Shown one piece after another: positions 2,758-35,633 of a DNA stretch of 39,913 nt. Within the stretch, counting starts at the first letter, position 1. Each line of letters opens with the position of its first letter. This stretch comes from a virus. The notes under the pieces are model-generated. The model worked only from the letters and a program-made list of their open reading frames with translations. It was not told where the DNA came from and made no database searches. The translations under genes and the position numbers were made by a program. The DNA is taken from positions 1 through 39,913 of IMG/VR virus record IMGVR_UViG_3300047323_000157. The stretch is one strand, 5' to 3'.

Positions 2758-3475
2758 CGTCGGAAACCTCGATGTTGAATGCCGCGATATGACCGCCCAC
2801 CGCATGGCTGATAGCGTTCAGTCGCTGCTGATAGACGTCATAGTGGATCGGGTGATGCTTCTTGAGATACGCGGCGCGGCCGTCGTCCCACCATGCCGAG
2901 CACGACAGGCACGGCGGATTCGAACGCATCGACTCGTAGTAGCGCGGCAACTCGACGCCCTCTTCCTCGAGGAACGTCATAACGTCCTCGTCGCTCCAGT
3001 CTTCGAGCGGGAACAGATATTCAATGCCTTCGTCGACGTCGCCCGAGCGCAGCGGCGCCTTGTTCGCGTCGCACTCCTTCTGGCCGCGCACGATCAGCGT
3101 GATGCCGTCCTCCACCATGCGCTGTGCGAGCGGCAGCATGACGGTTCGCATGCAGCACGAATAGCGGTCCTGCATCAGCACGGCGCCGCCGTTCGCCATG
3201 CCAATTGGCGTTGCGCTGAAGGGCACGATATCCGACGGGATGCCGAACTGCGCGATAACCTGCGGCTGATTGCCGTCGATCTCCACAAAATGCGGGACCA
3301 TCGCGCGCACGCGCTCGACCGCTTCGAGCGACTCCGGAAACGCATCGCCAGTGTTCACCCAATACACGGTGAGCCTGTCCCAATGCTTGCGCATCAGGTG
3401 CAGCATGGCGAGGCTGTCTTTTCCTGCGGAAAACTGGAGCGCGATGCGCGCGTGCTTTGCGATGGTGTTGTCCAT
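2732..3475 (-). CDS. PP-loop ATPase, PAPS-reductase-like
   Basis: The start is ATG 3475 (247 residues). The PP-loop signature SAGKDS lies at residues 16-21, the ATP-pyrophosphatase motif of the PAPS reductase/adenine-nucleotide alpha-hydrolase family. The protein also has a CC pair (SCCMR), a later Cys and a CLSC pair near the C-terminus that could bind metal. Members either reduce PAPS or activate substrates by adenylation, for example in thiolation; the substrate here cannot be read from sequence. It is a non-structural gene inside a run of virion genes, so it may be a late-acquired accessory gene. No clear Shine-Dalgarno precedes the start, which lies 19 bases after the upstream stop, so coupling or reinitiation is possible. 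Confidence 0.75.
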   Translation of the reverse strand: MDNTIAKHARIALQFSAGKDSLAMLHLMRKHWDRLTVYWVNTGDAFPESLEAVERVRAMVPHFVEIDGNQPQVIAQFGIPSDIVPFSATPIGMANGGAVLMQDRYSCCMRTVMLPLAQRMVEDGITLIVRGQKECDANKAPLRSGDVDEGIEYLFPLEDWSDEDVMTFLEEEGVELPRYYESMRSNPPCLSCSAWWDDGRAAYLKKHHPIHYDVYQQRLNAISHAVGGHIAAFNIEVSDDGRNTGSQ

Positions 3476-3494
3476 TTTTTGTGTGTGTGCGTGG

Positions 3495-12004: not shown

Positions 12005-12495
12005 TACTCGGCGCTCTTCTTCAGTTCAGCGTCGATCTTCGCTGCGTCCCATTTGCCATGCGGCAAGCGGCCGAAACGCTCCTTGTATTGCGCGGCCAGC
12101 ATGGCGCGTAGCTCTGACGTGTCCGTGACCGGATCGCCGTCGTCCGACTCAAGCGAACCGCCATTCGAACCGCTGTTGCCCTGCTCGCCACCCTGCGGGG
12201 GAACCGGCGGGGGCGTCCACACAGCGTTGACGCCGAGCAATGCAGGGTCGGTAACGCCCGGATTCAGCGCAGCCGTCGGCGCCGAGATAGGCGCAGCTAC
12301 GGGCGTCGGTGCGGCCGGCGCCGTTTCCACGACCACGCGATAGGCTTCAGGAATCGACAGGAAGCGCGCGATGTGCGCCTCGTCGGTCACTTCCGCGACG
12401 TGCTGGCCGTCGGCTTGCGGCGCAAAGTGGTAGTTCGTGCCGCGCAGTTCGACATGCGTGCCACCTTGGCGCAACAGAATGCACTTGATCTTCAT
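12004..12495 (-). CDS. Hypothetical head-module protein with Pro-rich linker
   Basis: The 163-residue protein starts at ATG 12495, with AAGGA 5 bases upstream. Residues 1-55 form a small beta-rich domain (MKIKCILLRQGGTHVELRGT ... HFAPQADGQHVAEV). Residues 60-120 are a Pro/Ala/Gly-rich linker. Residues about 128-160 form a short helical domain (LRAMLAAQYKERFGRLPHGK). Similar layouts occur in small phage head proteins, but no named family was recognised. A terminator-like hairpin lies just upstream, so its expression may be lower than that of the capsid genes. Confidence 0.6.
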   Translation of the reverse strand: MKIKCILLRQGGTHVELRGTNYHFAPQADGQHVAEVTDEAHIARFLSIPEAYRVVVETAPAAPTPVAAPISAPTAALNPGVTDPALLGVNAVWTPPPVPPQGGEQGNSGSNGGSLESDDGDPVTDTSELRAMLAAQYKERFGRLPHGKWDAAKIDAELKKSAE

Positions 12496-12510
12496 GGTTG
12501 TCCTTTGAAA

Positions 12511-12532
12511 GAAGGGGCATCTAAGCCCCTTC
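12511..12532 (-). terminator. Hairpin terminator/attenuator after the decoration gene
   Basis: A perfect 8-bp stem GAAGGGGC/GCCCCTTC with a 6-base loop is followed on the minus strand by TTTC only, so termination is probably partial. It lies between the probable decoration protein and the 163-residue gene, and would lower transcription of later tail genes relative to capsid genes. Confidence 0.6.
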
Positions 12533-12563
12533 GTTATTGATGTACTGCCCTGCTTCGCCGTGC

Positions 12564-13028
12564 TTACTGAATGTAGTAGAGAGTCAGCGCGATACGGCCC
12601 GTCACGGCGCCGACTTGCGGCCCCGCCGCGACCTTCACGCCGATCGAGCGGTCCTTGTCGGTTTCGGCAGTGCGCAAGATCGCGTTCTTCGTCAGGCGCG
12701 AGAGCGTGCCGCCCGTACGCGCCGACGTGTCGGCCGCGAACAGTTCATTGCCGCACGTACGCGCGCCGTCGAGCACGCCCACGACGCCCGACATGATCCC
12801 GACGTCGAGCGAGAGCGTCGGTGCGCCGCCCGTATCGAGCTTGTCGCAGTCGAGCGTTGCGTCCACCACGCGCGAATACGCGGGCAGCACGCCGAGTTCG
12901 ACGATATCGTTCAGCGCGAGCGCGGCCGCGAGGTCGATGTAGAACACCTGGGCGCAGACGTCGCCCGCTTGATCGGGCGTCGCGACGGTCTTTTGACCGG
13001 TGACGAACTTCGATTGAATCTGAGTCAT
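12564..13028 (-). CDS. Probable head decoration/accessory capsid protein
   Basis: The 154-residue protein starts with MTQIQSKFVTGQKTVATPDQ, with GGAG 6-7 bases before the ATG. It is beta-rich, with many Gly, Ala and Thr residues and few long helices. It lies directly downstream of the major capsid gene, between two terminator-like hairpins. This size and position are typical of decoration or stabilisation proteins such as those bound to the outside of capsids. No specific family motif was recognised, so the role is inferred. Confidence 0.6.
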   Translation of the reverse strand: MTQIQSKFVTGQKTVATPDQAGDVCAQVFYIDLAAALALNDIVELGVLPAYSRVVDATLDCDKLDTGGAPTLSLDVGIMSGVVGVLDGARTCGNELFAADTSARTGGTLSRLTKNAILRTAETDKDRSIGVKVAAGPQVGAVTGRIALTLYYIQ

Positions 13029-13062
13029 TTAAAACTCCGCTATGGATGCAGAAAGGAAGGAA

Positions 13063-13081
13063 GGGCCAGCATTGCTGACCC
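13063..13081 (-). terminator. Hairpin attenuator after the major capsid gene
   Basis: On the minus strand GGGTCAG and CTGGCCC (with one G-T pair) enclose CAATG and are followed by the pyrimidine run TTCCTTCCTTTC. The stem is 7 bp. It may end part of the transcription after the coat gene or protect the coat mRNA 3' end. Confidence 0.45.
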
Positions 13082-13093
13082 TTGCAGCGCCGA

Positions 13094-14194
13094 TTACGTG
13101 TTCGGGTCCTTCGCGTACGTGTCGATCGAGATCACGCCGAAGTCCTTGCCGTTGAACTGCGTCTTCTTCACGCCACCGATGAAGCCCGATGCAACGGTCG
13201 GCTCGTTGTCGTAATCCTCCATTTCCTCTTTCCAGGTGTAGCGCAGGCCGCCCTTCGAGCCGTACGCAATCACCGCGGCTTGACGGCCCATGAAGAGCGC
13301 GCGTGCCGCCGGCAGGTTCGCGCCCGCGCCGTAGTCCGAGAAGCGGATAACGTTGCGGTGCGAGTGGAGAATCGTGTTGCCGATCATGCCGAGGCCACCC
13401 TTGAAGATCGGGTTGTTTCGGCCTTCAGCGGCTGCGGCCGCCTTCTGGATTTCCAGCCAGCCTGCAGCGTCTTGCGTGCGCAACTGGAACTCCTGGAACG
13501 GCGACATGAGACACACGTAACGATCTTCCGTGCCTTCGATCGACACAGGGACCATGTTCGCCGTGTCCGGGTTCATGGCCTGCATCATGCTGGCCTTCAC
13601 CTGTGCACGTTCGACCAGGACGCGGCTCATCGTGTCGGTTGTCGCCAGCGATGCCTTGCTGGTCGCGACGCCGCCGTACATGATGTGGTCCACGTCCGGT
13701 GCATTGAACGGGTTGTTGGCGAAGCCGGTGTACGCGAGGCTTTCGATGAAGTCCGCGTTCACGCCGCGCGATGCCGACAGGTACATGAACAGGATTTCAT
13801 CGACCAGACGGCCGAAGTAATCGCCGAGGCGGTCACGGGCGACTTGGCGCAGGTTGTGTGCCGTGCGCTTTTGCGTCATGCGGCCGCCGGCCGATGCCGA
13901 CTTACGCACCTGGTCGATCGCAACTTCGTCCGTGAAGAACTTCAGTTGCTCTTCCTTGCCCTTCAGGCGCTTGTCGCCGTACGTCGGCTCGCCGCGCATT
14001 TGAACGCAGAGATCGAACGAAACCTTGTCGCCTGCGTCGGTTTCGAGTTCGGTCTTGCGCTGGATGATGGAGTTGTCGTCGGTTCCGATGAACTTGCCTT
14101 CGAAATACGACTTCTTGGCCGAGTCAACCGCGAGGTTGGCCGACCACTTCTTTTGGGCTTTTACGTCGCCAAACGGGACAACGGTCTGAGACAT
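13094..14194 (-). CDS. Major capsid protein, N4-gp56 family
   Basis: The 366-residue protein begins MSQTVVPFGDVKAQKKWSAN; GGAG sits 8 bases upstream. The pattern DDNSIIQRKTELETDAGDKV early in the protein matches the N4-gp56 type of major capsid protein, as do the Arg/Gln-rich helix MTQKRTAHNLRQVARDRLGD and the C-terminal VIAYGSKGGLRYTWKEEMED. This is an HK97-fold coat protein that builds the icosahedral head around the scaffold. Length fits the family. A 110-base gap upstream (14195-14304) contains no gene and may hold a promoter or leader, although no good consensus was found there. Hairpins flank the downstream gene. Confidence 0.9.
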   Translation of the reverse strand: MSQTVVPFGDVKAQKKWSANLAVDSAKKSYFEGKFIGTDDNSIIQRKTELETDAGDKVSFDLCVQMRGEPTYGDKRLKGKEEQLKFFTDEVAIDQVRKSASAGGRMTQKRTAHNLRQVARDRLGDYFGRLVDEILFMYLSASRGVNADFIESLAYTGFANNPFNAPDVDHIMYGGVATSKASLATTDTMSRVLVERAQVKASMMQAMNPDTANMVPVSIEGTEDRYVCLMSPFQEFQLRTQDAAGWLEIQKAAAAAEGRNNPIFKGGLGMIGNTILHSHRNVIRFSDYGAGANLPAARALFMGRQAAVIAYGSKGGLRYTWKEEMEDYDNEPTVASGFIGGVKKTQFNGKDFGVISIDTYAKDPNT

Positions 14195-14304
14195 GCGGAG
14201 TGCTCCATGAATGGATTAACGGTTCCACGTCGCACTCCTGCGCTTCGTTGGTCGGATTCTCGCTTTAGTGGTCCTAAAATGCAACCATATAGCGCGAAAA
14301 AATG

Positions 14305-14493
14305 CTAGTTCATGCCAAGTCCATACGACGCGGCGACGTTGGCAGGCGTCGCCGGTTGCACACGCTTGATCGGGACCGACTTCGGCGCATCGAACGACAG
14401 GCGCGCGATCTGCCCGGATTTCTCCTCGAGCGTCACAACAATGTTGTCGCCAATCCGCACGCTCTCGTTGGGCTTCAGGTCAATTTTCAGCAC
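14305..14493 (-). CDS. CsrA/RsmA-like RNA-binding protein
   Basis: The 62-residue protein starts at GTG 14493, with AGGGA 6-7 bases upstream. Residues 1-45 (LKPNESVRIGDNIVVTLEEK then SGQIARLSFDAPKSVPIKR) align well with CsrA in the GESIxIGDxIxVTV, RLGxxAPxxVxVxR pattern. The usual basic strand 1 (LTRR) is replaced by KIDLK. An Arg at about residue 44 is kept. CsrA proteins bind GGA in mRNA leaders and repress or stabilise translation. The tail from about residue 47 is Ala/Pro-rich. It lies between a Gp49-family gene and the major capsid gene, so it could regulate late or host mRNAs. RNA binding is not certain because strand-1 basic residues differ. Confidence 0.7.
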   Translation of the reverse strand: MLKIDLKPNESVRIGDNIVVTLEEKSGQIARLSFDAPKSVPIKRVQPATPANVAASYGLGMN

Positions 14494-14509
14494 AGTCGGT
14501 CCCTTGTCG

Positions 14510-14836
14510 TTACTGCGTTGCTGCCACGATAGCCTTCTTCAGAGCGTAGCCCTCAAGCTCCCACAGGCGGTCGCGGGCGTCCTTGTGCGCGTTGTCGATC
14601 GCGACACGCACGCCGATCTCCGCATCGAAGTTGGCCGGATCTACAGCGGCCGACTTGCCGATACCGGCGATGAACCCATTCGGCAGCACCGCGACCGCGA
14701 CAGTACAGGTCGTGCCGGGGAATCGGTGCGTCAAAGTCAGCATGCTTTGCGTGAGCGCGTCGATCTGCTCGCGCGTGACGCGCTGACCCGTCAGGCCCTT
14801 GGCTTTTACTGCGTCTTCAACTTGATCTTCAGTCAT
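14510..14836 (-). CDS. Gp49-family phage protein
   Basis: The 108-residue protein contains the block LTHRFPGTTCTVAVAVLPNG followed by FIAGIGKSAAVDPANFDAEI and a C-terminal LWELEGYALKKAI. This is the pattern of the Phage_gp49_66 (Gp49-like) family. The function of the family is unknown. It begins 11 bases downstream of the DUF2829-containing gene and ends 16 bases before the CsrA-like gene. The three genes sit together between scaffold and coat genes and appear to form a small non-structural insert in the head operon. Confidence 0.8.
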   Translation of the reverse strand: MTEDQVEDAVKAKGLTGQRVTREQIDALTQSMLTLTHRFPGTTCTVAVAVLPNGFIAGIGKSAAVDPANFDAEIGVRVAIDNAHKDARDRLWELEGYALKKAIVAATQ

Positions 14837-14847
14837 GTTTCCCTCGT

Positions 14848-15588
14848 TCAGAATGCCGCGATGCGCTCGCCAAGCACGTTGGAAAGCTCGTCCATGATGC
14901 GATGCTGGCGCGTCAGGCGAAGACGCTCGGCATCAGGGAGCTTGTCGAATACCGGATTCGTTTTGATGAAATCGACCAGCTTCGAGAGGCGTTCGTCGTT
15001 CTGTGCCTTCTCGTCGACGATGCGCTGTTGGTGCGGTGCCAGCGTCTTCGGCTCGGCCAGCAGCGGACCATCTTCGCCAATCACAGGCGCGGCGGCCTGG
15101 TCTTCGACGATCAGCCAGTCGTCCGCAAGGCAATCGCTCACGCTCGGCGCCCACGTGCTGACCGTCTCGTCCACGGTCTTGAGCGCCAGATAGGCGTTGT
15201 ACGGGACCATCGAGCCAATGCCGAAGTGCGCCTTCGCTGCGCCCGTCTGCACCGGATACGATGCGGCCGGGACCAGATACACGAACTGGCCCTTGCCGTT
15301 CCAGCCTGCGCGCTGGATGCGTGCGCCCTTCTTCGCCGCTTCGATCGCAAGCCCGAACGACATGCCAGTGACCGGGCGATACGCTGCGTCGGCCTGCGCC
15401 TTCGGCGACCACGACACATAGCCCGCATACTGCGGCGTGTTCGGCTTGCCGCCGTCGAGGTATTCGACGAGATAGCCGTCGTCGGCGCCGTTCTCGTTTG
15501 CCGGGAGTTCCCACCCACGAAACGCGTTGTATTCCGCGCGCGTCATGGCGAGCATTTTGACCAGCTTCGTACCGATGAATGTCTTCAT
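14848..15588 (-). CDS. Three-part protein: N-terminal domain, DUF2829 (Tad2-like), Acb2-like hairpin
   Basis: The protein has 246 residues. Residues 1-73 form a small domain (YNAFRGWELPANENG ... GYLVEYLDGGKPN). Residues 75-162 match DUF2829, with MSFGLAIEAAKKGARIQRAG, WNGKGQFVYLVP and the closing SDCLADDWLIVE. DUF2829 includes Tad2, the phage protein that sequesters the Thoeris signal molecule. Residues 183-246 (PHQQRIVDEKAQNDERLSKL ... LSNVLGERIAAF) form a two-helix hairpin resembling crAss001_48-related/Acb2-type proteins, which sequester cyclic oligonucleotides of CBASS. The fusion therefore looks like a double signal sponge. Domain names rest on pattern recall; binding is untested. It lies between the scaffold and Gp49 genes. 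Confidence 0.7.
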   Translation of the reverse strand: MKTFIGTKLVKMLAMTRAEYNAFRGWELPANENGADDGYLVEYLDGGKPNTPQYAGYVSWSPKAQADAAYRPVTGMSFGLAIEAAKKGARIQRAGWNGKGQFVYLVPAASYPVQTGAAKAHFGIGSMVPYNAYLALKTVDETVSTWAPSVSDCLADDWLIVEDQAAAPVIGEDGPLLAEPKTLAPHQQRIVDEKAQNDERLSKLVDFIKTNPVFDKLPDAERLRLTRQHRIMDELSNVLGERIAAF

Positions 15589-15600
15589 GTCCGTCTCCCG

Positions 15601-16578
15601 TTATGCTGCGGCCATGTACGCATCGCGATCGGCTTTGCTCATCTTCGCCAATGCCTCTTCGTGCGCCATCGGATCGGTTTCCAGCAGACGATCGAGCGCG
15701 GCAAAGCGGTTGCCGCTGGTGTCGGCAGACTCCGCGGCCGGCACGCTGCGCAGCGTCGGCGGCAGTTCCGGCTGCTTGCGCTCACCCTTCTTGGGGTCAT
15801 TTGCGGGCGGCGGCGTATCGGCCTTCTTCACGCCGAACGCGCCCGACACAGCCTTGTGCGCTTCGTCGAGGATCTGCTTGAACGAGTAGCTTTTCGCCTC
15901 GTCGGTGCTGGCAACACGCTTCACTTCGGCATCCAGCGCGCGATACAGGACCGGATTGTTCTTGTAGACGTCGTTCGCGTCGAGGAAGCTGCCGACGGTC
16001 GATTCCCACTCGTTCTTCGCCTGCTGCTGCTGCATCGACGCGGCGATGTTGGCCTGGTCGATCCGGCGTTCCAGCTGGCGCTCTTCCGTACTGAGCGAGT
16101 CCTTCGCGCTGTCGTACTCGTCGAACGTGATATCGCCGTCGTCGTACTTCTTGCGCAGCTCGGCTTTCTTGTCGCCGATCTCTTTCAGCCGCGTCTCTGC
16201 GCCTTCCGGGGCTTCGGCGACGAAAACGGGACGCGGTTGGCCATCTGCCGCTGCACCCGCTCCTGCACCTTCGCCCGCTCCTGCGCCATTGCCCGCACCG
16301 TTGCCGTCTCCTGCTGCACCGGCTCCGTCGGCACCGCCTGCGCCACCGGCATCTGCTCCAGCGCCTGCGCCTGCAGCGTCACCGGCTCCAGCAGCGCCAG
16401 TTCCTGCCCCGTCAGAATCTGCGCCTCCTGCGCCTGCTCCTGCGCCAGCATCCGTAGCAGCGCCAGCGCCGCCCGCGTCGACCCCGCCCCCACTACCAGC
16501 ACCATCTGTACCGGTTGCGTCTCCGTTGTCGTCGAGTTCGAGGGCTGCGCGTTCTTCATCAGTCAATCCGTCGTTCAT
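15601..16578 (-). CDS. Scaffolding protein
   Basis: The 325-residue protein starts at ATG 16578 in an ATGA overlap with the portal stop. Residues about 15-115 are extremely rich in Ala, Gly and Asp, a low-complexity acidic leader. Residues about 125-190 are charged and helical (RLKEIGDKKAELRKKYDDGD), suited to coiled coils. The C-terminal part is helical with basic patches. An acidic/helical protein between portal and coat genes is the usual scaffold of P22-type and N4-gp56-type heads, which organises coat assembly and then leaves. No protease motif is seen. Confidence 0.8.
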   Translation of the reverse strand: MNDGLTDEERAALELDDNGDATGTDGAGSGGGVDAGGAGAATDAGAGAGAGGADSDGAGTGAAGAGDAAGAGAGADAGGAGGADGAGAAGDGNGAGNGAGAGEGAGAGAAADGQPRPVFVAEAPEGAETRLKEIGDKKAELRKKYDDGDITFDEYDSAKDSLSTEERQLERRIDQANIAASMQQQQAKNEWESTVGSFLDANDVYKNNPVLYRALDAEVKRVASTDEAKSYSFKQILDEAHKAVSGAFGVKKADTPPPANDPKKGERKQPELPPTLRSVPAAESADTSGNRFAALDRLLETDPMAHEEALAKMSKADRDAYMAAA

Positions 16579-18863
16579 TGTGGTTGTCCTTGCATGGGTG
16601 GAAGTTGAAGTTGTTGCGGTGCTGCACCGTTGGGCATAGCACCTTGCTGCATCGCACCTTTCGGTGCCGCACCGTTTGGTATCGCACCATTCGGCACCAT
16701 AAGAGCGCCGTTATCTGGCTGTTGCGGGATCTGCGGCGGTTGCTGCTGTTGCTGCGGGAACGGCAGTCCGCCGCCGGGACCGTTCCAACCAGATTCGTGA
16801 AGGATCGCGTCTGCCACGGCTGCGGTAGCTGGCGCCATGATCGTGATTTGCGCGGCCTGATTGGCGAGCAACGTCGAATTGACGTTGTCTTGCACCGTTT
16901 GGCGCGCGATGCGATCGGCTTCAGCCTTCGCCTTGGCGGCCTTGGCCTGCTTCTCGTCGAGTTCGGCTTGCATCAGGGCGTCTTGCTGCTGCTGTGCCTT
17001 CGCCTGTGCGGCCGCCTTCGCCTGCTGCTCCGGATCTGGCTCGGTCGCGTCCGGATCAGTCATGCCTGTGACCTGGCGGATACGCGCGACGATCGCATCG
17101 CGGTTCGGAATGTCCATCAGCTCGACGAAGAGATCGAGCATGACGAGCGCGACTTGCGGCGGCATCTTGACCATCAGTTCGCCAAGCATTTCGGCCTGCG
17201 CCTGCCTGATGGATGCGTTCCACGCGGCTTCGTCGACGACAAAATCGGCCTTGGTGCGCGTAATGTCGTTCTCGGGCAGGCCGTCGTTCGCCGTGAAGAA
17301 AGACGCCTTGCCGCGCTGATTCGTGATGCGGAACTGCTTTTCTTCCGTGAAGAACTGTTCGATCAGCGATAGCTGTGTCTCGCCTTGGATCTGCACCGCG
17401 AGGCGCAAGTTGTCGAACAGCTTGTTCGTCGCGACGCTGCCTTGGTCCTGCCGGCGCTGGATCGCAATGCCCGATACGGCCTGCGTCGACTTGCCCATCA
17501 ACTCGTCAGTCACCCCGCCTACCTGCTGGAGCATCTGAATGTTGCGGCTCATCATGTCCAGGTGCGCTGGCGCAAGCTCGCGGTCGACATTGACTTCGAT
17601 TTGCTTGCCGGGCTTCTTTTCGATGACCGCGTTGGGCTTGGCGATTTCCTCTTTGTAGCGCTCGATATCTTCGACGGCGCCTTCATCCATGATCGTCTTG
17701 TTGGTCGACAGGATGTAGAGAGCCTTCGATGCGCGCTTGTTGATATCGTCCTGAATGTCGCGCATGCCACGGATGACACCGTACGGCAGGTTGTCGCGAC
17801 CACGCCGATATCCCCAAATGGGCGTGAAGATGAAGCGGTTGTGACGATACGGGCTCGGGCCTTCCCACAGAAGCCCTTGCGTCGTGAAGATCGCGCAGCG
17901 CACGCGCATCATGACGCGGTCGATCAGGATGCCGTTGCCGACCGTGATTGACGCGTGGTGGTGCGGGTCGTTCTCGTCGAACACTTCGCCGTGCCGCGGG
18001 CCGCCCTTGATGCGCCTCACCTGTTCCGGCGTGCGATACCAGCATTCGATCAGGCGAACGCGTTCGCGGCGGCTCGTCAGCAGCGTACGTGCGTACGAGT
18101 GCTCCTGACGGTCGTACTCGGCCGCGTCCATCGCGTCGTCGCCATCTTCGAGCGCGCCAACACCAAAACGGGCCCCTTCGGTCACGGACAGCTTGATTAG
18201 GTCTGCGCGGTCTTTGAAGTACGTCGTGGCTACGTCCACGTCGCTCCACTTCGTGCGGAACACGTAGCGTGCGTCGGACAGGTCTAGCTCGGTCGAAGCG
18301 CTGTCCCACAGCATGTTGCGCCACGACTCATAGCGCGAATAGACGACTTCGCCGTCGTCGTCGTCCTGTGCCCCGTCCTCAATCCAGCCGATGCCGACCT
18401 TGGCGGTATCTTCGAACGCACGCGAGCGCGCAAACGGCGTGCGGTTCACGTCCGACAGATACTTCAACAACGCGGTCTTGAGTTCGGCGGCCTTGCCGTC
18501 CTCCTTCTTGCGCGGCAGGATATTAAAGTCCGTGCGATTGCGCTTCTCGCTGCCGATGATCCAGTTCACCGACGTCGAAATGACGTTGTAGACGATGGGC
18601 GCCTGCCCGCGCTCCTTCAGGATTTGCGCCTCTTCCTCGGTCCACTGGATATTGTCGTAGTAGTCCTCGTCGGCGGCCTGCTGGAAACGGTTCTCGCCCT
18701 GCCGGTCAAGCTCCTGTTGGTAGAACGACAGCAGCTGGCCATGCAGTTCGACGTTTGCCTCAGAATCGAGCGGGTGCGCGGGCGCGTCCGGTTCCTGCGG
18801 CGCATCCAACACCATTCGATCGACCGGATTGTCATCCGTATGCACTCGCTCGTTTACGAACAT
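16575..18863 (-). CDS. Portal protein, P22 gp1-like
   Basis: The 762-residue protein begins MFVNERVHTDDNPVDRMVLD, with AAGGGG 5 bases upstream. The segment APIVYNVISTSVNWIIGSEK followed by NRTDFNILPRKKED is characteristic of P22-like portals. It forms the dodecameric ring through which DNA enters and leaves. The length is close to that of P22 gp1. The region after about residue 600 is Gln/Ala-rich and helical, as in the portal barrel. The extreme C-terminus carries Pro/Asn/Gly/Ala repeats (VPNGAIPNGAAPKGA), whose DNA overlaps one of the tandem TGGTGCG sites. It precedes the scaffold gene. Confidence 0.9.
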   Translation of the reverse strand: MFVNERVHTDDNPVDRMVLDAPQEPDAPAHPLDSEANVELHGQLLSFYQQELDRQGENRFQQAADEDYYDNIQWTEEEAQILKERGQAPIVYNVISTSVNWIIGSEKRNRTDFNILPRKKEDGKAAELKTALLKYLSDVNRTPFARSRAFEDTAKVGIGWIEDGAQDDDDGEVVYSRYESWRNMLWDSASTELDLSDARYVFRTKWSDVDVATTYFKDRADLIKLSVTEGARFGVGALEDGDDAMDAAEYDRQEHSYARTLLTSRRERVRLIECWYRTPEQVRRIKGGPRHGEVFDENDPHHHASITVGNGILIDRVMMRVRCAIFTTQGLLWEGPSPYRHNRFIFTPIWGYRRGRDNLPYGVIRGMRDIQDDINKRASKALYILSTNKTIMDEGAVEDIERYKEEIAKPNAVIEKKPGKQIEVNVDRELAPAHLDMMSRNIQMLQQVGGVTDELMGKSTQAVSGIAIQRRQDQGSVATNKLFDNLRLAVQIQGETQLSLIEQFFTEEKQFRITNQRGKASFFTANDGLPENDITRTKADFVVDEAAWNASIRQAQAEMLGELMVKMPPQVALVMLDLFVELMDIPNRDAIVARIRQVTGMTDPDATEPDPEQQAKAAAQAKAQQQQDALMQAELDEKQAKAAKAKAEADRIARQTVQDNVNSTLLANQAAQITIMAPATAAVADAILHESGWNGPGGGLPFPQQQQQPPQIPQQPDNGALMVPNGAIPNGAAPKGAMQQGAMPNGAAPQQLQLPPMQGQPQ
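16681..16700 (-). repeat. Tandem decamer pair ATGGTGCCGA/ATGGTGCGAT in the portal 3' end
   Basis: Two adjacent 10-mers with the TGGTGC core lie within a longer stretch (about 16621-16700) in which GGTGC recurs every 10-17 bases. The stretch encodes the NGAxP repeats of the portal tail. It could be a coding repeat, a binding site or both. Confidence 0.5.
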
Positions 18864-18882
18864 TGTTGCCCCTTATATCCGT

Positions 18883-19314
18883 TCAGTTCGGAAGCTGGCC
18901 GTGCTCAAGAATCTCCACCTTGCGGCGGCGCCCGTCGCCCATCGTCAGGCCCGCTTCACCTACGACAATCGCTGCCGTCGGCTCGGGCGGCATTTCGATC
19001 AGGTCTTGCAGGTGGTCGTAAATCAATGTCGCAAGGGCGTGAGTGGTCGTCATACCCGGCTCCATGCCCATTTCTTGCAAAAAATGGTGCGATTTTCGCA
19101 CCAGATAACGCGCGTCATTGTATTTGAACGCGGACGAAAGTGCTATGCAGCACGGTTTCGCACCATCCCGACGGAAAGCGGGCAGGATGACAAGGCACGG
19201 TTCGGTTTGATCGTCGGCGGCATTGCACCATGTGCCGTAAAGCGTGAATTCGCCCTTCTGACGGACGAACGCATTGCGCGTGAGGTCGAGGAACGGTCGG
19301 TTTTGCGTGGTCAT
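18883..19314 (-). CDS. Conserved hypothetical between large terminase and portal
   Basis: The 143-residue protein begins MTTQNRPFLDLTRNAFVRQK. Its ATG overlaps the terminase stop as ATGA. It has a mixed composition with WCNAADDQTEPCLVILPAF in the first half and an acidic, hydrophobic C-terminal half (AIVVGEAGLTMGDGRRRK). No motif was recognised. Its place in the packaging module suggests a small head or packaging accessory role. The DNA at 19085-19103 contains a TGGTGCGA palindrome inside the coding region. Confidence 0.6.
   Translation of the reverse strand: MTTQNRPFLDLTRNAFVRQKGEFTLYGTWCNAADDQTEPCLVILPAFRRDGAKPCCIALSSAFKYNDARYLVRKSHHFLQEMGMEPGMTTTHALATLIYDHLQDLIEMPPEPTAAIVVGEAGLTMGDGRRRKVEILEHGQLPN
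19085..19103. repeat. 19-bp palindrome TGGTGCGA-TTT-TCGCACCA
   Basis: Perfect 8-base arms flank three T residues. The arms equal the half-site of the 434-472 palindrome and of the tandem decamers. It lies inside the 143-residue gene, so it is constrained by coding as well. A single further half-site occurs at about 19157. Confidence 0.65.
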
Positions 19315-20867
19315 GCGACTCTCCAGTTGGTAGATTTGCTACGCTTTTTCGGCTCGCCGTTGTCCTGCTTCGGCGGCCTGAGTTGATAGATGATTGCGCC
19401 CTGCTGATACGCGTCGGCCGCTTCGCTGTTCAGGTCATGAAGCGGTTCGTCGGCCCATGCGCCGATCGACCCATTCCACTTGCGCTTGTAGTTTTCGAGG
19501 TGGTCGATCCCGTCTTTGCATTCCTCTTCGTCGAACCAGCAGTTGCTAAACCAGTCGCGAGCGGCCTGAATGCTGAATTGCTTCTCGGGGATGCGCGGCA
19601 CGATCTCAATGTTGCGCAGACCCAGGCGGCCAAGGGAGTCAGCCGGCGTCATGGCCGTGTCTTCGTCCTCGCGCATGCGTTCGTGGCTGGCGTCGTGCGG
19701 GAGCCAGTGCTTGCCGTAGACGTACGGGAGCTTGTGTAGCTCCTTCACGAAGTGGCTGTACGTCTCGCCCCATCCCTCGAGGAACCCGATGAACCGATAC
19801 TGCAGGCCGATGATCTGGAACAGCCATATGGCCGTGCCGTCGGTGTTGCCGATATCCCATAGCGTATGGACCGGCACGCCGTCGATGTGCGGAACCTTCG
19901 TGATGCGCTTCGCCTTGCGCGCGGCCGCGATCTGCTTCGTGAAGTAGCAGCCTTCAGACGACTTCTGGAACGCCTCGGCGGGCGTCGATGGGTATTCTTG
20001 CCACATACGCTCAGGGTTTTCGGGGTAGTCGGCGTCGCGCGTGGCGACGTACCAGGCCTTCTGTTCGGGGTCGAGCGTGCGGCCAATCTTGGCCTCTATC
20101 TCTTCGAAGTATTCGCGGTCCTTCTGGCCGATCGGCACGCCCGCCGGGTCCAAGCGGTATTCCTGCTGGCCCCACCAGGGGAAGAAGTGGAAACGGTAGT
20201 CACGCTTCGTCAGCACCTTGCCCGCCTTCTGGCTGGCCTCGGCGCGTTGCGACAACTTGAAGAACTCGCCTTCGCGCCCTTCAGCCGTCGATTCGATGGT
20301 CAGGATCTGGTCGAGCGGCACGGCCGGTATCGAGCCAGTCATGATTTCCTTCGCCTTGTCCGGATACTTCGCGCAAATCTTCCCGAACTCAGAGACGTGC
20401 AGGCGATGGATCGTGCCGCCGCGCACCGACGTCGCGACGCGCATGCTGCTGTTGTTGTGTCCGAATACCAGTTCCGTCGCGCTGCACTTCTTCAGCGACA
20501 TGGCCTCGCGCAGCGAATCGGGCAGGTTGTCGTACGCGAACTTGACCTTGTCTTTGAAGATGGATTCGGCCGTCTCGCGGTCCTGCGCGATGATGCCGCA
20601 CCGTACGTTGGCGTTGAAAAGCGCGTGGTCGAGGTACAGGATTGCGATCAACGTCGTAAAGCCAAGCTGGCGGGCCTTCAGCACAATATTTCTGTGATGA
20701 AGCCGATTCAGAAGCCTGAGCTGCGCCCGGTTCGGATTGAACGTCATAATCAATCCAGGGTCGTCCGGATCGTCGCTGCCCTTCGTTATGATTTTGTACA
20801 GATTGCATAGCCGCCACATTGGGTTTGACAGCTTTGCGCGAAGATCTTCAAGCTCGGCCGTGTTCAT
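19311..20867 (-). CDS. terL: Terminase large subunit
   Basis: The 518-residue protein has a Walker A-like IVLKARQLGFTT at about residues 60-71. A Walker B-like RLHVSEFG follows, in which Ser replaces the usual Asp before the catalytic Glu. The C-terminal nuclease part has LWDIGNTDGTAIW and HDLNSEAADAYQQ, with acidic metal-binding residues. It is the ATP-driven motor and nuclease that packages DNA into the head. The start ATG 20867 lies inside the end of the GIY-YIG gene (20-base overlap), with only a weak Shine-Dalgarno. The small subunit lies over 7 kb upstream rather than next to it. Confidence 0.9.
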   Translation of the reverse strand: MNTAELEDLRAKLSNPMWRLCNLYKIITKGSDDPDDPGLIMTFNPNRAQLRLLNRLHHRNIVLKARQLGFTTLIAILYLDHALFNANVRCGIIAQDRETAESIFKDKVKFAYDNLPDSLREAMSLKKCSATELVFGHNNSSMRVATSVRGGTIHRLHVSEFGKICAKYPDKAKEIMTGSIPAVPLDQILTIESTAEGREGEFFKLSQRAEASQKAGKVLTKRDYRFHFFPWWGQQEYRLDPAGVPIGQKDREYFEEIEAKIGRTLDPEQKAWYVATRDADYPENPERMWQEYPSTPAEAFQKSSEGCYFTKQIAAARKAKRITKVPHIDGVPVHTLWDIGNTDGTAIWLFQIIGLQYRFIGFLEGWGETYSHFVKELHKLPYVYGKHWLPHDASHERMREDEDTAMTPADSLGRLGLRNIEIVPRIPEKQFSIQAARDWFSNCWFDEEECKDGIDHLENYKRKWNGSIGAWADEPLHDLNSEAADAYQQGAIIYQLRPPKQDNGEPKKRSKSTNWRVA

Positions 20868-21525
20868 CCATCCACCGATTGATGAAGATGCCGATTGAGT
20901 AGTGGCCTACGCCGAATGCTGCGCCAATATCGCGGAGCGTCATGCCATCCTTTCGCATGATGACCATCTGGAGCTTGTCTATTTCCGTGTATCGACCGCG
21001 CGCGATAGCCGACTTCGCCATCTTCTTGCGCGCATCTTCCGTCGGACGGTCATTCCCATTCGCGCGGCGCGTATCCCATGTTTTGGTCAGTTCAGCCTTT
21101 GGCCGCTTTCGCCCGGTAGTCGCTGCCCGCATTGCCTCCACCTGCTGGCTGTTGTCGCGCAACTTGGCGGCTGCTGACATGCGCGCACGCGTCTCAGGCG
21201 GCGCCTTCCACCCCGCTGTATTGCCCGCCGTCGGAGAAAGGTTGTAGCCAAGCGTCACGGCTCGGTGTTCGTCGATGAATTGCTGCTCGGTGCGCTCTAG
21301 ATCGTCCGGGTTCGGGACTGAGCAAAGGATGACGCGCTCGAAATTCGCCTCGCCGTGCTTGTTCCAAGCCGACTGGAGTTTGGCGTTGATGTGCGCACCG
21401 CGGCGCAAGCGGGTGATGTGCTCGCCAAAACGACGAGCGCAGTCACGGCTTGACCCAATGTAGATCTTGCCGTTGACTGCGTTTCTCAGTGCGTAGATGC
21501 CACAAATGGGTGTCGCCTTGCTCAT
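20848..21525 (-). CDS. GIY-YIG homing endonuclease with NUMOD3-like repeats
   Basis: The 225-residue protein has the GIY-YIG core (CGIYALRNAVNGKIYIGSSR then DCARRFGEH) at residues about 8-32. A Glu further on lies in DDLERTEQQFI. Two NUMOD3-like DNA-binding units follow (PPETRARMSAAAK and PTEDARKKMAKSA). The C-terminal part (TLRDIGAAFGVGHYSIGIFI) looks like a helix-turn-helix. Free-standing phage homing endonucleases of this form cut a neighbouring gene in related phages and spread by repair. It overlaps the terL start by 20 bases, so terL is its likely target neighbourhood. No good Shine-Dalgarno is seen. Confidence 0.85.
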   Translation of the reverse strand: MSKATPICGIYALRNAVNGKIYIGSSRDCARRFGEHITRLRRGAHINAKLQSAWNKHGEANFERVILCSVPNPDDLERTEQQFIDEHRAVTLGYNLSPTAGNTAGWKAPPETRARMSAAAKLRDNSQQVEAMRAATTGRKRPKAELTKTWDTRRANGNDRPTEDARKKMAKSAIARGRYTEIDKLQMVIMRKDGMTLRDIGAAFGVGHYSIGIFINRWMDEHGRA

Positions 21526-21585: not shown

Positions 21586-22482
21586 CTATCGCCGTATCAG
21601 GCCCTTCACGATTGATGCCACGGCGGGGAATGCCGCGGCGGCGTTGCTGCGTAGGATGCCCGGATGCAGGCGGATCAGCGGCGAGTGCTGTCTGTCTATG
21701 CACCGCGCCTCCATCGCCGACCATGTGCCCGCGTTGTTGCCGGGCTTCATGCCCACGATGAACTCCAGCTGGCCCGGCGCGGTGTCGAAGAACATCGTGC
21801 ATTCGACCGCGATCAGGTTCGCACGGACAAGGTCACGCATCAGGCGCGCGAAGCTGGCGGGCGTGAACACCCAACAATGCACGTCGTTGTATTCGTCGTT
21901 GGCGGCCGCCGCGCGCGCGACGTCGCGGGCCTGCTCGGGCGTGAACTGACGCGGTGCGTCGTCGCCCTTCCCTATCCATCGTGTGACGGGCAGGACGGGC
22001 GTCATGTTCATGACGAAGTCTTCGACCTGTGCAGGCATCGGTCGCCGCGCGCGCGACTCGTACGCCGGCAGGACGTCGGCCATAGCCGTTTCCTTCCGCC
22101 TGAAGTCGAACGTGAAGCGCTTGTCGGGCACTGCCAGGCGGATCTCCCCGCCCGGCTTCAGCGCCGATACCAACTCGCCTAGCCACGTCACAAGGTCTGG
22201 AACGTGTTCGATGACGTGCGACGCGACGATGTAGTCGACTGGCGTGCCGAGCGCCTCCAGCAGCGTGTTATCGCCCCATACGCCGCCGACGTCGACGAAT
22301 GCCGTCCGGTTGACCTGCGGGTCGGCTGCGTACTTCTGGCGAAGCGTCTCCGTATCCGCGTGGTCGACGTAGATGACCCGGCCGTCCGTGCGTCTGACCA
22401 GCGGGCGCGTGAGAGCGCCGATCTCGGCGCCCTTCATGGCCTGCAGGTTCAGACCGGACAGGATCTTGGCTCTGCGGTTCAT
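21586..22482 (-). CDS. SAM-dependent methyltransferase (class I, Methyltransf_11-like)
   Basis: The start chosen is ATG 22482 (MNRRAKILSG, 298 residues). Motif I is the short GAEIGALTRP, giving the SAM-binding loop. The segment DYIVASHVIEHVPD followed by LKPGGEIRLAVPDKRFTFDF is the typical post-I and motif IV region of small-molecule or sugar methyltransferases. Such proteins often modify surface polysaccharide or small molecules, not DNA; no DNA-methylase PPY or PCQ motif is present. It could be a lysogenic-conversion gene altering the host surface, but that is inference. Its upstream spacing is 28 bases and its Shine-Dalgarno is weak. Confidence 0.75.
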   Translation of the reverse strand: MNRRAKILSGLNLQAMKGAEIGALTRPLVRRTDGRVIYVDHADTETLRQKYAADPQVNRTAFVDVGGVWGDNTLLEALGTPVDYIVASHVIEHVPDLVTWLGELVSALKPGGEIRLAVPDKRFTFDFRRKETAMADVLPAYESRARRPMPAQVEDFVMNMTPVLPVTRWIGKGDDAPRQFTPEQARDVARAAAANDEYNDVHCWVFTPASFARLMRDLVRANLIAVECTMFFDTAPGQLEFIVGMKPGNNAGTWSAMEARCIDRQHSPLIRLHPGILRSNAAAAFPAVASIVKGLIRR

Positions 22483-22510
22483 GGGTGTAAGGATTTGAAA
22501 GGCCAACACT

Positions 22511-22825
22511 TTAGCACGCGCGTATGCTTTCCTCCTTCTCTGCGGATGCCGCGATAGCTGCGTCGATAGCACGGTCCAACGATTCATCCCACAAAATCTC
22601 TTCACCTTCCGCGTTGCCAACGATGATCCCGCCGTCGACGAAGTTGTTACTGTCGCGCAGCCACCGATACCGCTCGGCATCCTTCGACAACTCTGCAATC
22701 TGCGCGTTGGCGGCTTCGAGGGCTGCGGCTTGCTGCTCGATCAGGTCGTGTGCGACCGGCGTCAGGTTGCCGTCGTCGTCGAGGCAAAGTGCGCCGCATT
22801 CCTCGCATTCTTGTTCGATCTTCAC
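22511..22825 (-). CDS. Small phage protein with CxxC motif and YRWLR segment
   Basis: The 104-residue protein starts in an ATGA overlap. An N-terminal CEECGALC could bind zinc. A helical, probably coiled-coil region follows (EQQAAALEAANAQIAELSKD) and then the AERYRWLRD motif that is common in phage accessory proteins related to the Ea22 type. The C-terminus is acidic and Ala-rich. The function is unknown. It belongs to a coupled row of accessory genes. Confidence 0.65.
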   Translation of the reverse strand: MKIEQECEECGALCLDDDGNLTPVAHDLIEQQAAALEAANAQIAELSKDAERYRWLRDSNNFVDGGIIVGNAEGEEILWDESLDRAIDAAIAASAEKEESIRAC

Positions 22826-32162: not shown

Positions 32163-33121
32163 ACCGGCTCCATGTCGATGGTCATTTCGTCGTGCGGCGC
32201 CGCGCCGTGCGCGCGGGCCTCAATGCGGCGTGCGGCCTCTTCGACCGCGTCGCGGTTGTGTTGCTCGATCGCCTGGCCCTTCGTCACCGCGCGCGGCGCC
32301 TGTGCGCCAGTCGCCTGCAGCTGAGACGCCTCTTGCGACCAGCGCTTGATGATCCCCACCACGTAGCCAAGGGAGAACGTCACACCCTCGCCCTTCGACT
32401 TCCGCGCGTCTGCACACGCTGCCGTCATCGTCTCGGGCGTTATGCCCTGCTCGGCCAGTTCGATCAGCATCGGATTGGCACCGTGGCACTGCACGCCGAA
32501 GCTACGAGCTGCGATGGACAACTGCACCGCCCCCGACGGATTTACGCCTGCGCCACCTACGTCTGAAGCACCATAGGCGGGGTTAGAACCACCTATCAAA
32601 TCTTCTCTACTCTTATCTAATCTAAACGGTTCTTCGTGGGCTCCCCCATGGCTAACCCAATCAGGAACCGAGCCATAACCGGGCGGAAACCCATGGGTTT
32701 CCGGCGGGATATCCATGGGGTTTCCCGTTGCAAAGCCATGGGGTTGCCCTTGGCCTCCCCCTTCGGTTTGCAGTGGCTTACCCTTGGGTCGGCCACCGCG
32801 TTTCCCATTCTCCCAATTCGCGAACAGCGCGGCGTTGTGTGTGCGCCAGTCGTGGACGATCAGCCAGTCGCCTTCGCGCTCAATGAAACGCGCTTCGAGC
32901 ATCGCGCGCTCGAATGCATCGGCAGGGCCCTTGAAGCGGCACATCGCCTTCAGCACGACAGGAGACATTGACTCGAAACGATCGGTCTTGCGTTGCTGGC
33001 AGTGCGCCCACAAACGCAGCACGTACAACGGCGCCATTTCATCGGCGACGTTGTTCTCTCCAAGTAGCTCGGCGAGCATGCGCGTTTTCCAGTGCTCGAT
33101 GAAATCCGGGTCGACGATCAT
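32159..33121 (-). CDS. Phage replication initiator (O-like)
   Basis: The 320-residue protein begins MIVDPDFIEHWKTRMLAELL, followed by YVLRLWAHCQQRKTDRFESM, the start typical of O-like replication proteins in Burkholderia and Pseudomonas phages. Residues about 1-100 form a winged-helix-like DNA-binding domain. Residues 105-165 are Gly/Pro/His-rich and are encoded by the iteron DNA. The C-terminal domain probably binds the helicase loader. It overlaps the downstream DUF6475 gene and the upstream methyltransferase (ATGA at both ends). It would bind the iterons inside its own gene to begin replication, as lambda O does. Confidence 0.75.
   Translation of the reverse strand: MIVDPDFIEHWKTRMLAELLGENNVADEMAPLYVLRLWAHCQQRKTDRFESMSPVVLKAMCRFKGPADAFERAMLEARFIEREGDWLIVHDWRTHNAALFANWENGKRGGRPKGKPLQTEGGGQGQPHGFATGNPMDIPPETHGFPPGYGSVPDWVSHGGAHEEPFRLDKSREDLIGGSNPAYGASDVGGAGVNPSGAVQLSIAARSFGVQCHGANPMLIELAEQGITPETMTAACADARKSKGEGVTFSLGYVVGIIKRWSQEASQLQATGAQAPRAVTKGQAIEQHNRDAVEEAARRIEARAHGAAPHDEMTIDMEPV
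32592..32749. other. Putative replication origin: iterons plus AT-rich tract
   Basis: Four related copies of CCATGG-GTTTCC type occur within the replication gene. They are CCATGGCTAACCC at 32646, the palindrome GGAAACCCATGGGTTTCC at 32685-32702, CCATGGGGTTTCCC at 32713 and CCATGGGGTTGCCC at 32736. The last three CCATGG cores lie 22-23 bases apart, and the first is twice that distance away. The tract at 32592-32636 is AT-rich in an otherwise GC-rich gene. The arrangement resembles lambda ori, with iterons inside O beside an AT-rich unwinding zone. Confidence 0.65.
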
Positions 33122-34152
33122 GAATGCTCCAGCATCAGGCCGGGTTGTTGAAGGCGCTCGTCCTGTAACGGAGCGTAATCAGGGTTCAGTTCACAGCCGA
33201 TGAAGGTCCGGCCAAGTTGTTGCGAAACCTGGCCTGTCGTCCCACTTCCGAAGAAAGGGTCGAGGACGATGCCGCCCGGCGGGCTACCTGCCAGAATGCA
33301 AGGTTCGACGAGCGCCGACGGGAACACAGCGAAGTGCGCACCCTTGTAGGGCTTCGTGTTGATGGTCCAGACACTGCGACGGTTGCGCTTGCCGCCGACG
33401 TCTGTCCATTCCGCATCATTGCCACGCGCGCCGTTCTCGTCCCGATATGAAAGGCGCTCGTCGCGCTTGAATCCGTTGCCGGAAGCGTGGTCAGTGACGG
33501 CCGACTCTTTGATCGCTTCGTGGTCGTAGTAGTAGCGCTCCGACTTCGTCAGCAGGAACACATATTCATGGCTCTTCGTCGGGCGGTCCGTGACGCTCTC
33601 GGGCATCGGATTGGGTTTGCTCCAGATAATGTCTGAGCGCAGATACCATCCGTCAGCGCGCAGCGCGAACGCGAGCATCCACGGTATGCCGATCAGGTCT
33701 TTCGGCTTCAATCCGGAGGCCTCCGGAATGGCGCCGGTTCGACTCTTCTTCGCTGGATACGCTCCAGCCTCGATTCGCGCGGCCTGAATCTTGGAACGCT
33801 GACGAACATCGGCGACGGTCCTTCCGGCCATTTGCCCGGTGTTGCCTTGGCGCCCCTGCGAGCCCCACGACCCCGCGTAGCTGTCGCCGATGTTCAGCCA
33901 CAGCGTGCCGTCGTCGGCCAGCACGTCGCGCGCTGTGCGGAACACGTCGACCATTGCATCGATATAAAGCGCGGGCGTCTCTTCGAGCCCCAACTGTCCT
34001 TCGTGACCGTAGTCGCGAAGCCCGTAGTACGGCGGCGACGTGACGATCGTTTGCGCCTTTACCCCGTCGGCAATCATCGCGCGCATGGTGTCGCGGCAAT
34101 CGCCGAAGTGGCACTTATCCAGCCATTTCGTCACTGTTGTAGAATCAGCCAT
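33118..34152 (-). CDS. DNA methyltransferase, N4-cytosine or N6-adenine type
   Basis: The start chosen is ATG 34152 (MADSTTVTKW, 344 residues); an ATG 15 bases upstream is possible. The catalytic SPPY (residues 39-42, in TSPPYYGLRDY) lies near the N-terminus and the SAM-binding DPFFGSGTTG near the C-terminus, the beta-class order. SPPY is more common in N4-cytosine than N6-adenine methylases. The enzyme methylates phage DNA, giving protection from host restriction or regulating genes. No restriction partner is adjacent. It follows the C5-methyltransferase after a gap that holds a plus-strand terminator. Confidence 0.9.
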   Translation of the reverse strand: MADSTTVTKWLDKCHFGDCRDTMRAMIADGVKAQTIVTSPPYYGLRDYGHEGQLGLEETPALYIDAMVDVFRTARDVLADDGTLWLNIGDSYAGSWGSQGRQGNTGQMAGRTVADVRQRSKIQAARIEAGAYPAKKSRTGAIPEASGLKPKDLIGIPWMLAFALRADGWYLRSDIIWSKPNPMPESVTDRPTKSHEYVFLLTKSERYYYDHEAIKESAVTDHASGNGFKRDERLSYRDENGARGNDAEWTDVGGKRNRRSVWTINTKPYKGAHFAVFPSALVEPCILAGSPPGGIVLDPFFGSGTTGQVSQQLGRTFIGCELNPDYAPLQDERLQQPGLMLEHS

Positions 34153-34183
34153 CTTTCGGCTTCCCATTCAGTCGTTAGATCAG

Positions 34184-34251: not shown

Positions 34252-35298
34252 CTAGTTTGCGACCACTACGGACGAACGAAAACCGGGGTGATACAGTGCG
34301 GCGCCCTCCTTCATGGCTTCGTCGGCGGATTGGATGAACGCGACCGCCGCTTCGGCGTTGATCGCGTTTCCGTAGGCACGCAAGCGTCCCACTCGGGCGG
34401 GAGCCCCATCAGCCAGCGGGAATGTGCCGGGTTCAACTGCCCGCCACTTTTCGTCGCGGCAGAGCAACCAGTCAGCAGTTCGCCAGAAACCGTTAGCCGG
34501 GCCGGCTGACTCGATACGCTCAACAAAGCGAAGTCGTTCAGATTCGATCCGTGCCGCGTCTCGCCCATCGCTCGCTTCGCCTGACCCACGCCCGTCGAAT
34601 CCGACGTTTGCGGCGTCGGCCAGCTCGCGACCTTGATCTGTTGCGCCAGCGACGATCCCGTCATGTTCGGCGTGATCTCCCCGCCCCGTCTCCCGTCCGA
34701 CGCAGCTGGCGTCGTCCATGCCGCGAGCCACACCGCGCGCCCTAGCAGCGCGTTTATCGGCACGTTCTTGCACTCCCCACCATCCTTGTGGTCGCGCGTA
34801 GTCGGCGTCGGCCACGAAGTAAGTGCGGTCCCTGATGTGCGGGGCACCGATGCCCGCAGACGGAAAAGCGAGCGCCCCGAAGGCAAAACCCAAGGCTTCC
34901 AGTTCAGTCGAAACAAGGTCGAGCCAAGGCTCTGCGTCCTTGCCTGCAACTTGCTCGCCAAAGATTTGGCGAGGTTTGCACTCTCGAATGAGCCAGCGCG
35001 CATCGGGCCACAGGTGTCGCTCGTCAGCAAACCCACGTCCCTCGCCTGCCGCGGAGAAAGGTTGGCACGGACAGGACAGGGTCCAAGCAGGTCCACGCCA
35101 CCCGGCGCGGGTAAGCGCGTAATCCCATACGCCAATGCCGGCGAAGAGGTGTACGCGGTCGAATCCTCTAAGTTCATCGGGGTAGACGTCCTCAATTGAC
35201 TTGTTGATGATGACGCCCGGCGTGATGAGCCCCGCATCCATCAGGTTGCTCAACCAGGCGCAGCAATACGGGTCGATCTCGTTGTACGCGGCTTTCAC
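34252..35298 (-). CDS. C5-cytosine DNA methyltransferase
   Basis: The start is GTG 35298, overlapping the upstream stop as GTGA and preceded by GGGAGAG. The 348-residue protein has motif I ([14 protein letters not shown]), motif IV with the catalytic Cys78 ([13 protein letters not shown]), a motif VI-like [12 protein letters not shown] (the usual ENV is EQV), motif VIII ([10 protein letters not shown]) and motif X ([15 protein letters not shown]). It methylates cytosine C5 in phage or host DNA. The region after motif VIII, the target-recognition region, is rich in charged residues. A second long reading frame covers most of this gene in the +1 frame. Confidence 0.9.
34311..35177 (-). CDS. Overlapping +1-frame ORF inside the C5-methylase gene
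   Basis: In the +1 frame relative to the methylase, an open frame runs 288 residues from ATG 35177. Its sequence is not random-looking. It contains two WPTP motifs ([17 protein letters not shown] and [14 protein letters not shown]) and ends with [20 protein letters not shown], which I recall from many phage and prophage hypothetical proteins. Both frames lie over the same bases. It could be a second protein, or only a frame annotated in error in related genomes. GAGG is 12 bases upstream, which is weak evidence for translation. Confidence 0.35.
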
Positions 35299-35633
35299 GC
35301 GCGCTCTCCCGCCCATGCCAGCTGGACGTACGGATTCACCGGGCCTTGCTTCGCGAGTTCGCGCATGCGCACCAGCCCGCTATCGCGCGGCGTCTCGCCG
35401 ACGGCGGTTCGCGTGCGGCGCGGCAAATCGTCCGCATGCGGCACTTCGGGAATGCCGTACAGCGTCGTGCCGTCGATCGACTCCAGAAAGCCGTCGGCGA
35501 TCGCCTTGCGGATCAGGCGCCGCGCCGTCGACTCCGTCAGCTGCGCCGCGTCGCGCAGGCCAACGACGCTCAACGGCGTGCGCTTGAAGTACGGCATGAT
35601 GCTCGCGACGGTGTAGGTCAGTTTGGTGCCCAC
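35295..35633 (-). CDS. Winged-helix DNA-binding protein
   Basis: The 112-residue protein starts at GTG 35633, with GGGGAG 8 bases upstream. Residues about 10-60 (SIMPYFKRTPLSVVGLRDAA then TESTARRLIRKAIADGFLES) form a winged helix of the MarR/replication-regulator style. The rest is a polar tail. It probably regulates the early operon or assists replication. It overlaps the T5orf172-like gene by 16 bases and is coupled to the C5-methylase start (GTGA). Confidence 0.65.
   Translation of the reverse strand: MGTKLTYTVASIMPYFKRTPLSVVGLRDAAQLTESTARRLIRKAIADGFLESIDGTTLYGIPEVPHADDLPRRTRTAVGETPRDSGLVRMRELAKQGPVNPYVQLAWAGERA

Follow-up and report, generated by a model that had tools for sequence, protein, structure and literature searches.

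The window analysed here, a complete viral record of 39,913 bases (IMGVR_UViG_3300047323_000157), belongs to a Burkholderia-type phage. One of its reading frames encodes a protein composed of three modules, referred to below as N, T (the Tad2-like domain) and C, and the gene is accordingly named N-T-C (Table 1). The preliminary description had proposed this single reading frame without giving its strand; the frame is real and lies on the minus strand, and the peptides quoted from it are found at the residues to which they had been assigned. The surrounding genes follow the order terminase large subunit, 'DNA methyltransferase', portal, the gene at 15601-16578, an accessory slot, the CsrA-like regulator and coat, which resembles the order in Burkholderia Lessievirus phages. 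The earlier placement of the gene between scaffold and coat holds on the coat side, where the Gp49_66 and CsrA-like genes also precede the coat gene, while 'scaffold' as a label for the gene at 15601-16578 is a guess from position.

Table 1. Features of the N-T-C gene and its neighbours in the window.
Feature	Coordinates	Strand	Remarks
N-T-C protein gene	14848..15588	-	246 aa, ATG start, TGA stop, three modules
N module, residues 1-73	15370..15588	-	SH3/Tudor-like by weak fold matches
Tad2-like domain (PF11195), residues 76-162	15103..15363	-	Profile and fold; nearest to ModTad2 (hisADPR-bound)
Linker, residues 163-184	15037..15102	-	Mostly predicted disordered (AlphaFold2)
C module, residues 185-246	14851..15036	-	crAss001_48 hairpin (PF21825), not Acb2 by sequence
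Likely ribosome-binding site GGGAGACGGA	15590..15599	-	Picked by eye; follows the stop codon of the upstream gene (15601-15603) and precedes the ATG
Gp49_66 protein gene (PF13876)	14510..14836	-	11 nt downstream of the N-T-C gene
CsrA-like regulator gene (PF02599, E=1.5e-11)	14305..14493	-	Closes the accessory slot ahead of the coat gene
Coat gene	13094-14194		Phage_capsid_3 match
Gene adjoining the portal gene	15601-16578		Sole full-length match phrog_8246, function unassigned

The gaps flanking the N-T-C gene are 12 and 11 nt long, with plausible ribosome-binding sites (by eye). A scan of positions 12,400 to 21,000 gave no sigma70-like promoter, against 1.7 expected in shuffled sequences, and the protein is therefore probably made late, together with the head proteins, as had been remarked previously. 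Late timing is a weak objection to a role in counter-defence, since the capsid protein is itself a reported trigger of Thoeris, the major head protein being recognised by the sensor ThsB1 according to a review (PMC12043709). A CsrA-like gene just upstream of the coat gene was also observed in the phages BcepIL02, DC1, BcepMigl, CSP3 and Skulduggery, so that its position is conserved. Elsewhere in the window a GIY-YIG nuclease-like gene and three methyltransferase-like genes are found, all on the minus strand (20848-21525, 21586-22698, 33118-34167 and 34252-35316). Two of the three methyltransferase-like genes are DNA methylases lying side by side, possibly for restriction evasion.

The middle module is clearly Tad2-like. 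Residues 76-161 match PF11195 (Tad2-like/DUF2829) with an E-value of 1.3e-22 and 80.6 bits, above the curated cut-off of 25 bits. In sequence comparison with solved structures, the two entries for ModTad2 from a Myroides odoratus prophage (9eib, with hisADPR, and 8v3e, apo) were the best matches with E about 1e-25, and SPO1 Tad2 followed at 1.5e-13. The structural searches agreed: Foldseek ranked 9eib, 'in complex with hisADPR', first (55% identity, TM 0.82 of target length), and in VIA-align every Tad2 structure scored Z 11-13, ahead of the helical hairpins that came next, with 9eib at Z 12.6 over 86 residues. The DUF2829 core that had been read from the sequence alone is thus confirmed by profile, by identity to ModTad2 and by fold.

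Several features point towards ModTad2 in particular. The pocket loop reads PSVSD, as in ModTad2, compared with PSQTD in SPO1 Tad2 and ASQTD in HgmTad2, and in a tree of 68 Tad2 domains the window domain falls on the ModTad2 side, away from SPO1 and HgmTad2, although this split is only moderately supported (85/89). SPO1 Tad2 (gp34.65, a gcADPR sponge) shares the family and the fold but is a more distant single domain with about 35-40% identity. The same family and fold are shared by SptTad2 and HgmTad2/AcrIIA7, the chains of which carry an insertion tied to cyclic dinucleotide binding (review) and reach 101 and 104 aa, respectively. The window domain has about 88 aa, like ModTad2, and because it is shorter than those chains the dinucleotide-linked insertion seems to be short or missing. 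ModTad2 differs in being a lone domain of 88-89 aa, whereas the window domain forms the middle of a 246-aa protein.

A review names the elements that make up the Tad2 ligand pocket: the loops beta1-beta2, beta3-beta4 and beta4-alpha3, together with strand beta4 and helix alpha3. On the predicted model these elements would, by our own assignment, include GWNGKGQF and WAPSVSD. MoTad2 is reported to inhibit type II Thoeris through binding of hisADPR (PMC13299392, citing primary work). These observations suggest to us a sponge of the hisADPR type, gcADPR being the second choice; the preliminary description was right in assigning the domain to the Tad2 sponge family, and hisADPR is a better guess than the gcADPR that it named.

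The C-terminal module is a genuine two-helix hairpin, as had been described, but by sequence it does not belong to Acb2. Residues 185-244 match PF21825 (crAss001_48) with E=4.5e-16 and 58.9 bits, above the curated cut-off of 24.8 bits, and AlphaFold2 places its helices at residues 185-210, 212-216 and 219-245 with pLDDT mostly 94-98. The module is therefore a member of the crAss001_48 family, of which the 63-aa 'Shock protein C' of crAss001 is an example (TM 0.96 of target length against the crAss001 model); members of this family usually stand alone, whereas here the hairpin is joined to Tad2. Acb2 (T4 Vs.4, PaP2 p26) is likewise a small helical hairpin in phages, and an Acb2-like identity was the second half of the earlier proposal. 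No match to PF24729, the Acb2/Tad1 hairpin profile, was obtained at E<=1 in the protein, nor was any found in the genome, while the same search recovers T4 Acb2 at 2.2e-20. When 58 C domains were compared with 11 Acb2 sequences by hhalign, the probability of a relationship was 0.7%, and 5.8% and 2.9% against two Acb2 subfamilies taken separately; the subfamilies find each other at 98%. The Acb2 invariants (G-Y, I, N, K, M, R, P) are absent, and the C family has a conserved set of its own, PHQQR, EK, E, Q, M and L..RI..F, represented in the window protein by P185, H186, Q187, Q188, R189, E193, K194, D198, E221, Q228, M232, R242 and F246. On sequence, an Acb2 assignment was consequently rejected.

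Fold searches with the hairpin returned generic, unrelated helical hairpins, and Acb2 was not among the matches listed; they do not decide the Acb2 question, since so simple a fold is shared by many proteins that have nothing to do with one another. No PDB sequence scored below E=0.09 with the hairpin profile. Several of the conserved polar residues lie where helix 1 begins and helix 2 ends; in an antiparallel hairpin they would meet at the open end, and this cluster leaves room for a putative binding site. Stand-alone crAss001_48 hairpins were also seen near the record ends of T4-like phages of Citrobacter and Escherichia (H88-H94), where some of them overlap or adjoin rIIB, suggesting an accessory-gene spot.

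The N module (residues 1-73) has no Pfam family, and its only PHROG matches, phrog_872 and phrog_9467, are both functionally unassigned. Folded alone it reaches a pLDDT of 92.9, and its fold matches are weak and mostly to small barrels of the SH3/Tudor/chromo type, the best being part of Mfd (Z 4.8); the N profile found no match among PDB sequences. An SH3-like adaptor is, with low confidence, our reading of it. For the whole protein, AlphaFold2 with a 63-row alignment gave a mean pLDDT of 90.4 and a model in which the N module is compact and is followed by the Tad2 domain, a linker of low confidence at about residues 165-179, and the hairpin; the pTM of 0.63 fits loosely tethered modules. The model also matches in structure the BFVD entry A0A0B4ZZN3 of Yersinia phage vB_YenM_TG1, a protein named for a RyR (ryanodine-receptor) domain (E=1.2e-4, 29% identity over 94 columns).

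The same modules turned up in many arrangements when viral contigs and phage records were scanned and module profiles built from them were applied. N-T is very common, and N-C, T-C, C-T, Gp49_66-C, N-Gp49_66-C, N-Gp49_66-T, J-C, N-J and C or T alone were also found. J is a small module (phrog_1761/5120) that occurs beside C in some phages; it was considered as an Acb2 relative and set aside, hhalign showing no relation. The complete N-T-C arrangement occurs in four contigs, namely the window, L139 (with a divergent N), L259 (61% identical to the window protein over its full length) and L234, and this recurrence argues that the fusion is no accident of assembly. The loop in the middle module of L234 is PSQSD, which is the commoner type on the SPO1/Hgm side of the tree, and this module may therefore have been swapped in its own right. 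The T-C fusion requires at least four changes on the tree, and six on the best tree.

The N module keeps close company with the others. The N profile found 80 loci, and every one of them has T and/or C in the same reading frame (71 N-T, 7 N-C and 2 N-T-C), and 19 of the other reading frames in these loci are Gp49_66. Ten T loci have Gp49_66 in their flanks, and in nine of the ten it lies no more than 300 bp away; three of the ten (L007-L009) are near-identical loci. Klebsiella phage KP8 has Gp49_66 first, then a short reading frame and N-T, with C following as a separate gene; N-Gp49_66-C occurs in Achromobacter phage Axy13, with a weak C match (E=0.0015), and N-Gp49_66-T in L042. The Gp49_66 neighbour of the N-T-C gene has no convincing relative in the PDB by sequence. 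Vibrio phage 1.205.O carries a reverse-order C-T fusion, followed by a gene with N and J (L079:2498-3010 and 3064-3489). Pseudomonas phage Skulduggery encodes, directly upstream of an N-T gene, a protein with a partial Acb2/Tad1-hairpin match (L075:4559-4861) of 24.9 bits, just below the PF24729 cut-off of 27; the pairing imagined in the preliminary description is found there as two genes.

The accessory slot ahead of the coat gene is itself variable. It holds a 119-aa protein in BcepIL02 and DC1, a Gp49_66 protein in BcepMigl, and N-T-C with Gp49_66 in the window. In Burkholderia phage CSP3 it holds a 98-aa homologue of the 119-aa protein together with a 141-aa N-C fusion (WBF05205.1), which has the N and C modules and the slot in common with the window, its C being 59% identical, but lacks the Tad2 module altogether.

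The defences against which such a protein could act were sought in a sample of 299 genomes from the family to which a Caballeronia with a related phage contig belongs. ThsB_TIR was detected in 25 of them and SMODS nucleotidyltransferases in 30, while ThsA_Macro was found once, adjoining a ThsB_TIR. Candidate targets of both classes thus exist in such hosts, with the macro-type Thoeris effector, and hence a type II Thoeris target, being rare there.

On balance the N-T-C protein is probably a multi-module counter-defence protein in which a Tad2 sponge for TIR-made ADP-ribose signals, hisADPR being the likeliest, is combined with a swappable second module. By analogy with ModTad2, its closest solved relative, the Tad2-like domain would assemble as a tetramer and would soak up a second messenger of the ADP-ribose type that TIR proteins make, in all likelihood the hisADPR of type II Thoeris. 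The N module, SH3-like on weak evidence, may serve phages as a carrier or adaptor for Tad2 and for other small modules, and the C hairpin on its flexible linker may add a second binding or assembly function. Translation along with the late head genes would mean that the protein is present when new capsid protein can trigger TIR defence. It should be borne in mind that DUF2829 proteins occur widely and may in many cases do something else; some relatives are annotated as anti-CRISPR.

Alternative readings differ mainly in what they ask of the individual modules. Tad2 could be the sole sponge, with N and C acting as scaffolding for avidity or stability (C, for instance, oligomerising the tetramers) or as a tether to host machinery. 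Helical hairpins often oligomerise, the linker is flexible, the domains are confidently predicted as separate units, and N weakly resembles SH3/Tudor-like adaptors, its best match being an RNA-polymerase-binding region. This reading is possible but doubtful to us, for C is very common as a stand-alone gene of 60-80 aa with strongly conserved polar residues, suggesting a function of its own, and N-C occurs without Tad2. A bolder version of the counter-defence interpretation, which can be put forward only tentatively, holds that crAss001_48, N and Gp49_66 are counter-defence modules themselves, joined by phages to Tad2 in varied orders, and that C represents a new family of sponges or inhibitors, which has no relation to Acb2 and is also present in crAss-like gut phages. 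The proposal made from the sequence at the outset was that one protein sequesters Thoeris signals with Tad2 and CBASS cyclic oligonucleotides with an Acb2-type hairpin in a separate module. Its Tad2 half is borne out, and something can be said for the other half: both are two-helix hairpins, C is repeatedly joined to Tad2, conserved polar residues gather at the open end, and the near-cut-off gene in Skulduggery suggests that a pairing of the two functions may occur in nature. The negative profile and hhalign results and the missing invariants nevertheless make an Acb2-type module unlikely, and with that half failing, dual blocking of Thoeris and CBASS by this protein is possible but unsupported.

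Two further readings have very little to commend them. DUF2829 takes in AcrIIA7 (PDB 8kbi), and the anti-CRISPR annotation of relatives might suggest that the Tad2-like domain is an anti-CRISPR of that type; this is most improbable, given that the domain lies opposite HgmTad2/AcrIIA7 on the moderately supported tree and closer to ModTad2, and that HgmTad2/AcrIIA7 has itself been solved with 1',2'-cADPR and cGG. That the protein is part of the head or helps to assemble it might be supposed from the position between portal and coat, on the same strand and with tight gaps within the head operon. We give this equally slight weight, as related phages carry different small genes in the slot and N-T relatives elsewhere adjoin lysis genes or a virion RNA polymerase gene.

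Most of the Tad2 proteins with a solved structure consist of one small domain, and here Tad2 is a swappable piece of a recurrent kit. A literature search returned no paper on Tad2 fused to other modules; Tad2 as one swappable module among crAss001_48, N and Gp49_66 seems to be new within the literature searched. The modules are separable and CSP3 supplies a natural counterpart that lacks Tad2, which opens the idea to direct test. It would provide a first functional lead for crAss001_48, which also occurs in crAss-like phages, and for Gp49_66, both widespread families without a known role, as well as for the N module. A kit of modules mixed and matched in many phages looks like a counter-defence toolkit.
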